A DNA stretch of 64,000 bases from Acidovorax sp. T1 (GTDB taxonomy: Bacteria; Pseudomonadota; Gammaproteobacteria; Burkholderiales; Burkholderiaceae_C): assembly GCF_002176815.1 (NCBI RefSeq), contig NZ_CP021648.1, positions 3,046,001-3,110,000 on the forward strand, given 5' to 3'. The position numbers and the translations under genes are program-made. The notes below the pieces were generated by a model, which was not told where the DNA came from, made no database searches, and was given only the letters and a program-made list of their open reading frames with translations. Shown here one piece after another: positions 652 through 61,941 of the stretch (positions are counted from its first letter, which is position 1; every line of letters starts with the position of its first letter).

Positions 652-694
652 AATAGCTGCAAGCGCTTATACATCAAGCACTACAGCCTGATTT
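652..694 (-). repeat. AGCGCTT palindromic repeat, copy 1
   Basis: Reads AATAGCTGCAAGCGCTT, then a short loop, then AAGCACTACAGCC, in the 265-bp gap between panC and lysA. It is a diverged member of the dispersed repeat described in the findings. The rest of the gap up to lysA shows no gene that I can support; it should hold the lysA promoter. Confidence 0.7.
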
Positions 695-845
695 CACCCA
701 AAAAGCCGATCTATCGCAAGGCAACGCCATCGGCGGGCCGCGCTGCGGGTGCTGTTCAGAATGAATGCCCGGTAAACTTCAACGCCCCGGGTCCAACGAT
801 GGACCCACCGCACACTTTCGCTTCTTCCAGCACCCGCATCGCCCC

Positions 846-2099
846 ATGTCCAACCCTTTCTCGCCTGCGCAACTGTGGTCCCTGGCCGACCAGTTCGGCA
901 CCCCGCTGTGGGTGTATGACGCCGCCACCATCCGACAGCGCATTGCGCAGCTGTCCAACTTTGAAACCATCCGCTTTGCGCAAAAAGCCTGCTCCAACAT
1001 CCACATTTTGAAACTCATGCGCGAGCAGGGTGTGAAGGTGGACGCGGTCTCGCGCGGCGAGATCCTGCGCGCGCTGGCCGCCGGTTACCAGGCGGGCCAC
1101 CAGAGCAATGCGCCGTCCGAGATCGTCTTCACGGCCGACCTGTTCGACGCGGCCACACTGGCCTGCGTGATCGAGCACGACGTGCCGGTGAACGCCGGCT
1201 CCATCGACATGCTGCACCAGCTGGGCGCCGCATCGCCGGGCCACGCGGTGTGGCTGCGCATCAACCCCGGCTTTGGCCATGGCCACAGCAACAAGACCAA
1301 CACCGGCGGCGAGCACAGCAAGCACGGCATCTGGCACACCGACCTGCCGGCCGCGCTGGCCGCCATCCGCCAGCATGGCCTGAAGCTGGTGGGGCTGCAC
1401 ATGCACATCGGCTCGGGCGTGGACTACCGCCACCTCGAACAAGTGTGCGGCGCCATGGTAGAGCTGGTGCGCACCACGCATGCCACAGGGCACGACCTGC
1501 ACGCCATTTCGGCCGGCGGCGGCCTGTCCATCCCCTACCGCGATGGCGAACCGATCATCGACACGCAGCACTACCACGGCCTGTGGGATGCCGCGCGCCA
1601 GCAGGCCGAGGCCATCGTGGACCACCCGCTGGGCCTGGAGATCGAGCCTGGCCGCTACCTGGTGGCCGAATCGGGCGTACTACTGGGCGAGGTGCGCGCC
1701 ACCAAGGATGCGGGCAACAACCATTTCATGCTGCTCGATACCGGCTTCAACGAGCTGATGCGCCCGTCGATGTACGGCAGCTACCACACCATGAGCGTCC
1801 TGCGCCGCGACGGCAGCACGGCGGCCCACCGGCCCAGCGTGGTGGCGGGGCCGCTGTGCGAATCGGGCGACGTGTTCACGCAGGGCGACGGCGGCGTGGT
1901 GCTGCCGCGCAACCTGCCCGATGCGCAGGTGGGCGATTTGCTGGTCATCCACGACGCAGGCGCCTATGGCGCCTCGATGTCCTCCAACTACAACACCCGG
2001 CCGCTGATTGCCGAGGTGCTGGTCGATGGCGGCCAGGCCCGTCTGATCCGCCGCCGCCAGACGGTGGAGGAACTGCTGGCGCTGGAGCTGGGCCTGTAA
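846..2099 (+). CDS. lysA: diaminopimelate decarboxylase-type PLP enzyme
   Basis: 417-residue fold-type III PLP-dependent decarboxylase, most likely meso-diaminopimelate decarboxylase, the last step of lysine synthesis. The PLP lysine is K47 in RFAQKACSN. Other family marks are HMHIGSG, the phosphate-binding AGGGLSIPY and the EPGRYLVAESG segment. The frame is open from 765, but the ATG at 846 gives the usual start (MSNPFSPAQLWSLADQFGTP). Downstream, gpsA is convergent with only 29 bp between the stops. A related amino-acid decarboxylase role (for example a carboxynorspermidine-type enzyme) cannot be fully excluded, because this form differs from the textbook YAVKAN motif around the PLP lysine. 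Confidence 0.85.
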   Translation: MSNPFSPAQLWSLADQFGTPLWVYDAATIRQRIAQLSNFETIRFAQKACSNIHILKLMREQGVKVDAVSRGEILRALAAGYQAGHQSNAPSEIVFTADLFDAATLACVIEHDVPVNAGSIDMLHQLGAASPGHAVWLRINPGFGHGHSNKTNTGGEHSKHGIWHTDLPAALAAIRQHGLKLVGLHMHIGSGVDYRHLEQVCGAMVELVRTTHATGHDLHAISAGGGLSIPYRDGEPIIDTQHYHGLWDAARQQAEAIVDHPLGLEIEPGRYLVAESGVLLGEVRATKDAGNNHFMLLDTGFNELMRPSMYGSYHTMSVLRRDGSTAAHRPSVVAGPLCESGDVFTQGDGGVVLPRNLPDAQVGDLLVIHDAGAYGASMSSNYNTRPLIAEVLVDGGQARLIRRRQTVEELLALELGL

Positions 2100-2128
2100 A
2101 TCCAGCGCGCCCTGGCGTCATCCTGGCG

Positions 2129-3169
2129 TTATCGGGTGGACTCGCTGCAGAGTTCCGAGGCCGGGTCCCGCCCCATCAGCAGCCCCACGGCATCGGCGGG
2201 TGCCAGGCGGCCATCGAGCAGGTCCACGACCGCCTGGGTGATCGGCATGTCCACACCCAGCCCCGCCGCACGCTGGGCCACGGTGCGGGCGCAGTACACG
2301 CCTTCGGCCACATGGCCCAGGGAGTCCACCGCCTGTTGCAGGCTCTGGCCCTGGGCCAGCAGCAAGCCGACGCGGCGGTTGCGCGACAGGTCTCCGGTGG
2401 CGGTCAGCACCAGATCGCCCACGCCCGACAGCCCCATGAAGGTGTCGGGCCGCGCGCCCAGCGCAACGCCCAGGCGCGTCATTTCGGCCAGGCCGCGCGT
2501 GATGAGGGCGGCCCGGGCGTTCAGCCCCAGGTTCAGCCCATCGCACAGGCCAGTGGCAATGGCCAGCACGTTTTTGACCGCGCCGCCCACTTCCACGCCC
2601 ACGATGTCGTCGTTGGCATACACCCGCAGGCTGGGGCCGTGAAAGGCGGCCACCAGCGCATCGCGCACCAGGGCATGCCGGCTGGCCGCCACCAGCGCCG
2701 TGGGCTGGCCGCGCGCCACCTCTTGCGCGAAGCTGGGGCCGCTGAGCACGCCAGCGATCAAATCAGGGGCTACCTGCGCGCACACCTCGTGCGCCAGCAG
2801 GCCAACAGAACCCCAATCCGCCGGTGCCACCGCCTCGAAGCCCTTGCACAGCCAGGCCACCGGGGCCGGGCAGCCGCGCAGGGCCAGCAGCATGCTGCGC
2901 AGCGCCGCCATCGGCGTGGCCACGATGACCAGGTCGGCAGCGCGCGCCAGCGCCAAGGGGTCGGCGCCCGACACCGAGAGCGCCGAGGGGAAATCAATGC
3001 CCGGCAGGTAGCGCGCGTTCTGCCGGCGCGCCTGCATGTCGGCCAGCTGCTGGCCATCGCGCGCCCACAACGTGACGGTGTGGGTGACGGCGTGGCCGCC
3101 GGGTTGCCGGGCGGCCCCCATGGCCAGCGCCGTGCCCCAGGCTCCGGCACCAAGTACTACTATTTTCAT
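2129..3169 (-). CDS. gpsA: NAD(P)-dependent glycerol-3-phosphate dehydrogenase
   Basis: 346-residue enzyme that reduces dihydroxyacetone phosphate to sn-glycerol-3-phosphate for phospholipid synthesis in the cytosol. The N-terminus [16 protein letters not shown] is the Rossmann nucleotide site (G7, G9, G12). The catalytic-lysine segment [13 protein letters not shown] and the substrate-binding [14 protein letters not shown] are present. It lies downstream of secB in the order grxC-secB-gpsA, a common proteobacterial arrangement. The start codon sits at the very edge of a palindromic repeat, so the leader and the ribosome-binding region consist of repeat sequence with no clear Shine-Dalgarno. 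Confidence 0.95.
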
Positions 3170-3204
3170 AGCTGCTTGCGCTTATGTATCAAGCGCCAGA
3201 GGCC
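3168..3204 (-). repeat. AGCGCTT palindromic repeat, copy 2 (gpsA leader)
   Basis: ATAGCTGCTTGCGCTT, loop, AAGCGCCAGAGGCC. On the minus strand it ends in GCAGCTAT, whose last two bases are the first two of the gpsA start codon. A second small hairpin (AGAGG at 3197-3201 with CCTCT at 3212-3216) partly overlaps it. Confidence 0.85.
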
Positions 3205-60780: not shown

Positions 60781-60781
60781 T
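60759..60781. promoter_or_regulatory. candidate Fur box
   Basis: TGCAAATGCGAATTTTAAGC then ATT; within it a 19-bp imperfect dyad AATGCGAAT-T-TTAAGCATT (6 of 9 pairs). The left part resembles the beta-proteobacterial Fur-box start TGCAAATGAGAAT. It overlaps the permease start codon in the divergent iron-transporter gap. Confidence 0.5.
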
Positions 60782-60806
60782 CGCTCCGCCCCACTAGAAT
60801 CCAGCC

Positions 60807-61871
60807 ATGTTTCTTGAGGTTTCACAACTGGAAGTGCGTTACGCGGGCCGTTCCCAGGCGGCCGTCCAGGGCGTCACGCTGGGGCTGCATGCGGGCGATA
60901 TCGGCGTGCTGATCGGCCCTTCGGGCTGCGGCAAAACCACGCTGCTGCGCGCCGTGGCGGGGCTGGAGCCCGTATCGGCCGGCGAGATCCGCCTGACGCG
61001 CCAGCTGGTGGGCAGCGCCCACCTGAACGTGCCCCCCGAAGAGCGGCGCATTGGCATGGTGTTCCAGGATTACGCCCTGTTCCCGCACCTGAGCGTGGAG
61101 CGCAACGTGGCGTTTGGCATCCACCAGCTGCCCCGGGCCGAGCAGGCCGCGCGCGTGGCCGAGGCGCTGCAACTGGTGGGGCTGGAAGGCAGCGGGGCGC
61201 GCTTTCCGCACGAGCTTTCGGGCGGGCAGCAGCAGCGCGTGGCCCTGGCGCGGGCGCTGGCCCCGCGCCCGCAGCTCATGCTGCTGGACGAGCCGTTTTC
61301 CAACCTCGATGTCGATTTGCGCGAGCGCCTGGCGCACGAGGTGCGCGACATTTTGAAGGCCGCCGGGGCCACGGCGCTGTTTGTCACGCACGACCAGTTC
61401 GAGGCCTTCGCGATTGGCGACGTGATTGGCGTGATGCACGAAGGCCACTTGCACCAGTGGGATGATGCCTACACCCTCTACCACCGGCCGGCCACCCGCT
61501 TCGTGGCCGACTTCATCGGCCACGGCGTTTTTGCGCCCGCCACGCTGGTGCAGCGCGGCAACAACGTGGTGGCGCAGACCCCGCTGGGCGACCTGACCGA
61601 TCTGAGCGAATGCCCCCTGCCCGCCAGCTACCCCGGCGGCGAATGCGATGTGCTGCTGCGCGCCGATGACGTGGTGCACGACGACCACGCGCCCGTGCAG
61701 GCGCAGATCGTGCGCAAGTCGTTTCGCGGCTCGGAGTTTTTGTACACGCTGCGCCTGGCCAGCGACCTGACCCTGATGGCCCATGTGCCCAGCCACCACA
61801 ACCACGCCGTGGGCGAGTGGATTGGCATCCGGGCGCAGGTTGACCATGTGGTGACGTTTGCGCGCAGCTGA
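60807..61871 (+). CDS. Fe(III)-type ABC transporter ATPase (FbpC-like)
   Basis: 354 residues. Walker A GPSGCGKTTLLRAVAG, Q-loop FQDYALFPHLSVERNV, signature LSGGQQQRVALARALA, Walker B LMLLDEPFSNLD and the H-loop FVTHDQFEAF, followed by a C-terminal TOBE-like regulatory domain. Belongs to the FbpC/CysA/PotA subfamily. Divergent from the FbpB-like permease, so both are probably controlled from one region. Confidence 0.92.
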   Translation: MFLEVSQLEVRYAGRSQAAVQGVTLGLHAGDIGVLIGPSGCGKTTLLRAVAGLEPVSAGEIRLTRQLVGSAHLNVPPEERRIGMVFQDYALFPHLSVERNVAFGIHQLPRAEQAARVAEALQLVGLEGSGARFPHELSGGQQQRVALARALAPRPQLMLLDEPFSNLDVDLRERLAHEVRDILKAAGATALFVTHDQFEAFAIGDVIGVMHEGHLHQWDDAYTLYHRPATRFVADFIGHGVFAPATLVQRGNNVVAQTPLGDLTDLSECPLPASYPGGECDVLLRADDVVHDDHAPVQAQIVRKSFRGSEFLYTLRLASDLTLMAHVPSHHNHAVGEWIGIRAQVDHVVTFARS

Positions 61872-61890
61872 GGCAGTTTTACAAGCCAAA

Positions 61891-61941
61891 TCGTCCGCTA
61901 GCGCTTATGTGCAAAGCGCTGAAAGCTATCGAAAAAATAGC
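61891..61941 (+). repeat. AGCGCTT palindromic repeat, copy 14
   Basis: CGTCCGCTAGCGCTTATGT, GCAAAGCGCTGAAAGCTATC, then GAAAAAATAGCACAAT. Between the convergent fbpC-like and plsC stops. Confidence 0.85.

Follow-up and report, generated by a model that had tools for sequence, protein, structure and literature searches.

Gyrase and IHF act at the repetitive extragenic palindromic (REP) elements and bacterial interspersed mosaic elements (BIME) of enterobacteria. Repeats of the REP type are usually taken as mobile elements or as their relics, and what the host gains from them has remained an open question. REPs of the GTAG and CGTC super-families are palindromes of 20-40 bp that carry an unpaired tag, GTAG or CGTC, on one side, according to PMC3733652, and the beta-proteobacterial repeat element (BRE) is given as about 90 bp long, with 69% GC on average (64-79%), often tandem and in up to 29 copies, in PMC3110155. 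Here we describe a dispersed repeat of Acidovorax sp. T1, analysed in a stretch of 64,000 nucleotides (the window; contig NZ_CP021648.1, positions 3,046,001 to 3,110,000) and in the remaining genome. From its base sequence, its placement and its inheritance we tentatively regard it, at a little short of even probability, as a family of recognition sites in double-stranded DNA, which resembles REPs but lacks their tag and is kept by selection for a chromosomal factor in the way proposed below.

A sequence-only reading of the window had noted 14 copies of a palindromic repeat of 40-55 bp in both orientations. A covariance model, R1, built from an alignment (A2) of 12 clear window copies gave 13 strong hits there, with 48-70 bits and E values of 2.1e-7 or lower, of which 12 are the training copies by construction. 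Thirteen of the 14 places were recovered as strong copies, with the one at 19089 being weak (21.5 bits, E 0.048); both orientations were seen, the copy near 39623 being best read on the minus strand. The length had to be corrected, as 149 copies from the own genome, placed in register, revealed a conserved unit of ~67-70 nt with sharp edges, random flanks and no conserved sequence outside the unit in the column profile. Its consensus is wTTGCTATTnwTTTrATAGCTGCTAGCGCTTwTnnATAAGCGCTAGAGGCCaATTTGACTCAAAwTT, with the palindromic centre between an AT-rich conserved head (TTGCTATTnwTTTrATAGCT), which holds an imperfect GCTAT/ATAGC dyad, and an AT-rich conserved tail (CCaATTTGACTCAAAwTT), head and tail being asymmetric. 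The block carries 86.5 bits of information relative to genome composition and has a mean GC content of 0.40 vs 66% for the window. The stem is preceded by ATAGCTG on one strand and by GGCCT on the other, with A in column 20 in 95% of the copies. The inverted core GCGCTT-N3..12-AAGCGC was found at 7 places of the window (14 with both strands counted) vs 0.68 on average and 6 at most in 100 dinucleotide shuffles; the exact core with a spacer of 6, the true loop having 7 bases, gave little more than its control (24 vs 13 matches per strand). The copies of the window are given below with the state of the same place in three relatives that carry the family (G033, G027 and G007) and in two in which no match was found (G032 and G002).

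637-705, plus strand: element copy (R1 61.9 bits; occupied in G033 and G027)
3152-3220, plus strand: element copy overlapping the start of the minus-strand open reading frame (ORF) 2129-3169 (R1 61.9 bits; occupied in G033 and G027, empty in G032)
13877-13945, minus strand: element copy (R1 59.7 bits; occupied in G033 and G027, empty in G002 and G032)
14672-16045, minus strand: gene of an M16-type peptidase whose signal peptide is encoded by the element (PF05193; MITMKKIAASALLVSAGALLGANPAWA)
15975-16043, minus strand: element copy that is read in frame as part of the M16-type peptidase's signal peptide, as seen from the translation (R1 63.8 bits; match there in 27 of 30 same-genus loci)
19071-19134, plus strand: weak or decayed copy, the 19089 of the sequence-only reading (R1 21.5 bits, E 0.048; place without match in G033)
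21906-21974, minus strand: element copy read in frame as part of the signal sequence in a SCO1/SenC gene, 21374-21985 (R1 64.4 bits; PF02630; MHKRNALKLIAVSALSISASAILGAC; occupied in G033, G027 and G007, empty in G032)
36091-36159, minus strand: element copy, site A, adjoining the 3' end of lysE (R1 70.3 bits; place filled on this strand in 19 of 80 kefC loci from other genomes)
36868-36936, minus strand: element copy, site B, in the lysE-kefC gap (R1 62.1 bits; place filled on this strand in 10 of 80 loci)
38855-38923, minus strand: element copy, site C, after kefC (R1 65.9 bits; place filled on this strand in 9 of 80 loci)
39609-39677, minus strand: variant copy with a stem of 17 pairs followed by a T-rich tail, terminator-like in a terminator scan (R1 48.0 bits; occupied in G033 and G027)
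44357-44425, plus strand: element copy (R1 61.2 bits; occupied in G033, G027 and G007)
49470-49538, plus strand: element copy reaching from the end of ORF 48908-49510 into the start of ORF 49529-50716 (R1 58.1 bits; occupied in G033, G027 and G007)
57340-57408, minus strand: element copy (R1 64.4 bits; occupied in G027, unmappable in G033)
61877-61945, minus strand: element copy (R1 59.9 bits; occupied in G033)

Matches independent of the window were obtained when the complete genome (4.42 Mb, main contig 4.10 Mb) was scanned: the best 150 of 2496 candidates all match R1 (E 1.3e-10 to 1.5e-5), and all 150 lie on the main contig, with none on the other three contigs (chance 1.3e-5). In 17 stratified random stretches of 20 kb (340 kb in all) 45 copies were detected at E 0.01 or better and 37 at 1e-4 or better, which scales to ~540 or ~450 copies per chromosome, about one per 8 kb; three stretches of the other contigs (56 of 319 kb) held no copies vs 7.4 expected. 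Searches with a hand-made consensus matched 4 of 72,556 plasmid records, the Comamonadaceae share of which was not counted, and no phage record.

For column profile and placement 149 of the 150 listed copies were used, with gene calls from a simple codon-based caller written for the purpose, and for loop, coupling, pair and identity counts 146 copies, three with indels being dropped. The copies sit preferentially at gene 3' ends. Gaps between genes hold 137 of the 149 copies (39 in convergent, 89 in codirectional and 9 in divergent gaps), and in the random stretches the copies per gap were 10/38 (0.26), 28/212 (0.13) and 1/37 (0.03) respectively (chi-square p 0.011), tracking the number of gene 3' ends in the gap (two, one or none). 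Six of the 45 random-stretch copies lay inside ORF calls. The median distances from stop codon to copy were 16 and 4.5 nt. The sequence-only reading had placed the copies where transcripts end or start; the ends were borne out, but not the starts, as divergent gaps are nearly empty. No clear orientation preference was observed relative to the genes (50 to 39 in codirectional gaps), nor a clear polarity relative to replication (112-119 of 211 copies).

The copies are vertically inherited. Aligned stretches of G033 are 88-94% identical to the window, and the strong window copies that could be mapped were all present in the same orientation, namely 12/12 in G033, 10/10 in G027 and 7/7 in G007 (of 13 strong); the weak copy at 19071, which maps to G033 and is empty there, was excluded from these counts. 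Mapping back gave 10/10 strong copies of G027 occupied in the window, with one weak copy (21 bits) empty, and 11/12 copies of G033, where the exception adjoins a tRNA-Arg and by eye looks like a loss by deletion in the window genome. No insertion boundary was seen at the orthologous gaps of the three element-bearing relatives. Between orthologous copies (G033/G027/G007) the 29 core columns are 93.1/92.8/88.7% identical, the 23 middle columns 84.4/79.6/67.7%, the 17 variable columns 80.4/70.6/60.5% and the near flanks, which are partly coding, 74.0/73.2/65.7%, with a small circularity, as the column classes were set from own-genome copies including those of the window. The core columns are thus constrained. 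In paralogous copies the variable columns are only 34.6% identical, whereas orthologues share private variants, and therefore the copies descend in place and are not homogenised.

Among 60 relatives, matches to R1 were detected in at least 33 of 36 same-genus genomes (own genome included), whereas the 24 genomes from other families of the order gave none with E up to 1e-4 (here and below for single genomes, among at most the best 87 candidates per genome). In the wider family, at least 68 of 250 genomes and at least 39 of 115 genera have one or more matches among at most the best 21 candidates per genome. The family is nearly absent in some relatives: G032 and G002 gave no R1 match genome-wide nor any up to E 1 in 139 kb, and the places that could be mapped were empty (4/4 in G032, 2/2 in G002). 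By its closest kefC relatives the host falls in Acidovorax. The 80 kefC loci examined in public genomes contain 67 matches, with site A filled in 19 other loci, site B in 10 and site C in 9, in the same orientation in every filled locus; these belong to Acidovorax and, depending on the site, to Diaphorobacter, Simplicispira, Comamonas, Polaromonas or Paracidovorax wautersii, and the flanks of filled loci are unalike by eye except in a few close pairs. As other genera fill site A, loss would be likelier than late gain in the lineages of G032 and G002. At 36850-38950 of the window, G027 shows no alignment to the kefC found here despite collinear surroundings.

Copies also lie within genes. The kefC gene is covered at one position by a copy in antisense orientation in 11 grouped loci, which come from Rhodoferax, Polaromonas, Ramlibacter, Curvibacter and, in part, from records assigned to betaproteobacteria only. 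The codon test used 75 of 81 sequences with 10 carriers (of the 11 grouped; a twelfth, L206, lies outside the grouping range). In these ten, AT-ending codons make up 60% in the element vs 21% elsewhere (maximum 31%), and identical residues have identical codons in 67% vs 53% elsewhere, with none of 554 windows as high; among non-carriers this silent-codon identity is not raised (51% vs 61%), at least one of them (L162) visibly holding part of the element. The KefC length of the carriers is within the range of genes without the element, with no clear change. At the signal peptide of the M16-type peptidase a match was found in 27 of the 30 same-genus loci examined (35 found), the two weakest having 27.5 and 29.9 bits. 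The three loci without match belong to G030 (a reduced number of 21 listed matches genome-wide), G005 (3) and G032 (0), all of which keep an M16 signal peptide of the same length; the place is empty in the element-free G002, too. AT-ending codons amount to 64% in the element of the carriers vs 12% elsewhere (maximum 22%), and to 6% in G005 and G032. AT-ending codons are thus kept in two coding sequences, and the copy in the SCO1-like gene (21374-21985) is a third in coding sequence.

We propose that the ~450-540 copies represent fixed, vertically inherited chromosomal sites of ~67-70 bp, in which selection would keep chiefly the base sequence of double-stranded DNA. A putative chromosomal DNA-binding factor, nucleoid-associated or topological, would recognise the site and act downstream of transcription units, where positive supercoils gather, and the absence of the element in bare relatives would follow loss of this factor. 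The topological role downstream of genes is a guess, made by analogy with gyrase and IHF at the REPs of enterobacteria. A double-stranded recognition site is favoured because a mobile relic leaves the selection on letters in coding sequence unexplained, and because an RNA hairpin leaves the free orientation, the weak compensation and the survival in genes unexplained. It is possible, if somewhat doubtful, that the ~500 copies of a ~70-bp motif constitute a new class of chromosomal site. In this case, purifying selection via a single trans-acting factor would maintain them, reaching even into the codons used for signal peptides and for a transporter helix, and the sites would decay across the whole genome in a lineage that has lost the factor. 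A REP-like family apparently held by selection at the level of single bases, in gaps as well as in genes, and with bare relatives as a natural control makes the question of what such repeats are for testable.

Several observations weigh against this proposal. The four outer pairs of the central stem jointly form 326 of 584 pairs vs a mean of 307, with 5 of 2000 shuffles as high, and together with a loop that occurs in both orientations (below) this indicates that hairpins are at least sometimes formed and may have a role. The 65 kefC non-carriers are also raised in AT-ending codons at the place of the element (24%; elsewhere mean 14%, maximum 21%), and in the M16 gene the silent-codon identity of the element does not stand out from the remaining sequence, 53 of 413 windows being as high. 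Of 21 loci in which both neighbours of site A were mapped, 15 are filled and 6 have no match there, and as the gap lengths overlap (80-171 bp filled, 74-167 bp unfilled) there is no clean empty site. The difference between gap classes (p 0.011) is based on 39 copies and on the calls of a home-made gene finder. DprA (36 of 36 genomes) and H-NS (35 of 36), tried as candidates for the factor, show no link with absence of the element. Two H-NS-domain genes of equal score were found in the host, at G000:C1:1907049 on the chromosome and at G000:C2:137567 on a secondary contig. The head resembles by eye the IHF consensus, but the needed base (column 19) is present in only 41% of the copies.

An old mobile family of the REP or miniature inverted-repeat transposable element (MITE) type, perhaps once moved by an HUH transposase of the REP-associated tyrosine transposase (RAYT) type and now an inherited relic or a very slow population, seems unlikely. 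Copy number, intergenic placement at 3' ends and occasional intragenic copies do resemble REPs as described in PMC3733652, and a RAYT-like gene is present in the genome (G000:C1:773099-773800; L216, L133). This gene has one close orthologue per genome, 65-90% identical, in 23 of 24 same-genus genomes searched. However, only 4 of 30 RAYT loci have an element copy within ~1.5 kb, with no enrichment above background, and an orthologue also occurs in the element-free G002, so that the transposase sought by the sequence-only reading exists but is unlinked to the repeat, and membership in a REP or REPIN (paired REPs forming a hairpin)-RAYT system, in which the repeat flanks the RAYT gene, was rejected. 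The consensus lacks a GTAG or CGTC tag, and by length and tag the element does not belong to these super-families. Among 146 copies (10,585 pairs) none of the pairs reaches 90% identity (maximum 0.896), the mapped strong copies are all occupied in three relatives and no insertion boundary was seen, which argues against a MITE or other mobile element. Nor would core columns, or AT-ending codons within genes, be preserved in neutral relics. From the classification as a REP or MITE-like family, the dispersed occurrence and the REP-like density and placement remain, but not the mobility.

A second explanation, which we consider just as improbable as the mobile relic, is an RNA element, i.e. a bidirectional terminator or 3'-end stabiliser forming a hairpin in transcripts. 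The copies are close to stop codons, the copy at 39609-39677 is terminator-like, and the majority sequence, calculated as single-stranded DNA, has a better fold than most of its shuffled versions (z -2.6 and -2.9; 5 and 2 of 200 as good), to which the small joint excess of the four outer stem pairs is added. However, in 146 copies each of the 22 single pairs, six of which can carry no information, stays at or below the maximum reached in 500 shuffles, pairs in the tail are rarer than in shuffled columns, and the 45 strongest column couplings hold no stem pair, the strongest links being between near neighbours. The compensatory changes claimed by the sequence-only reading amount to 1 of 132 cells changed on both sides in the 12-row alignment, as in shuffles, and find weak backing only in the joint count. 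Stem pairing is conserved at most weakly, and the small excess could come from shared descent among copies. A tail hairpin, hinted at by the hand-made consensus, was unsupported by the true majority sequence and the pair counts. The 7-base loop (columns 36-42) occurs in both orientations, with 176 reverse-complement matches vs 5.1 expected from column shuffles (maximum 20 of 1000), while reversal gave 43, which is the fairer control because column shuffling breaks links between neighbouring bases, and complement alone 6; this suggests that the loop is occasionally inverted between the arms.

Further points against an RNA element are the indifferent orientation, despite an asymmetric head and tail that are both conserved, and the retention of copies in kefC and in signal-peptide coding sequence, where a terminator would cut expression. 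The class of intrinsic terminators (GC-rich stem, T-run, oriented with the gene) does not fit the column profile and the 50 to 39 orientation, with the exception of the copy at 39609-39677; this copy carries a mirror-like second head, giving the 17-pair stem and T-rich tail, and may be a repeat turned into a terminator. An Rfam scan of the window led to one tRNA only and a permissive scan of 35900-39800 to four matches, all below gathering scores and none at the element, so that no known structured RNA family could be assigned. The contrary view that the copies are ancestral, gene-specific terminators is largely right in that they are ancestral and without insertion boundaries; they are not gene-specific terminators because both orientations occur and some lie in coding sequence.

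Less probable again is a motif resembling uptake sequences, spread and kept by biased DNA uptake and recombination. The element is bound to the chromosome, with no phage match and 4 plasmid matches, lies in coding sequence where the protein tolerates it and is kept at orthologous places, but it is ~6 times longer and several times rarer than known uptake sequences, and DprA is found in all 36 genomes, with or without elements. Chance similarity or a model artefact, conceivable as twelve window copies trained the model, is practically excluded by 150 genome-wide listed matches, a core commoner than in shuffles and the control genomes, with no match up to E 1 in 139 kb of the two element-free relatives and none up to E 1e-4 in the 24 genomes of other families.

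In the open-licence main texts covered, a partial set without supplements, no earlier description of the consensus or of such a Comamonadaceae family was found, and an earlier description elsewhere is possible; six Comamonadaceae-related terms were not found in the main text of PMC3733652. The element shares with DNA uptake sequences that it is chromosomal, stable at orthologous places and tolerated in coding sequence, and differs in length, in density and in having no link to the presence of DprA. With BRE, as described in PMC3110155, the element has in common that it is a dispersed repeat in several Comamonadaceae, in gaps and ORFs; it is set apart from that description, without alignment of letters, by 67-70 nt, 40% GC and hundreds of copies. 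REPINs with their RAYT, as described in PMC3116915, are likewise short hairpin-forming repeats in hundreds of copies with a RAYT-like gene in the genome, but the consensus of the element is not a mirror pair of one 16-mer, and near-identical copies, flanking of RAYT, insertion or excision were not seen. The REPs of the GTAG and CGTC super-families, as presented in PMC3733652, resemble the element in high copy number, palindromic centre and placement downstream of coding regions, in codirectional or convergent gaps and sometimes in genes; they are tagged and 20-40 bp long, whereas the element is untagged, has ~67-70 bp and sits at orthologous places across species.

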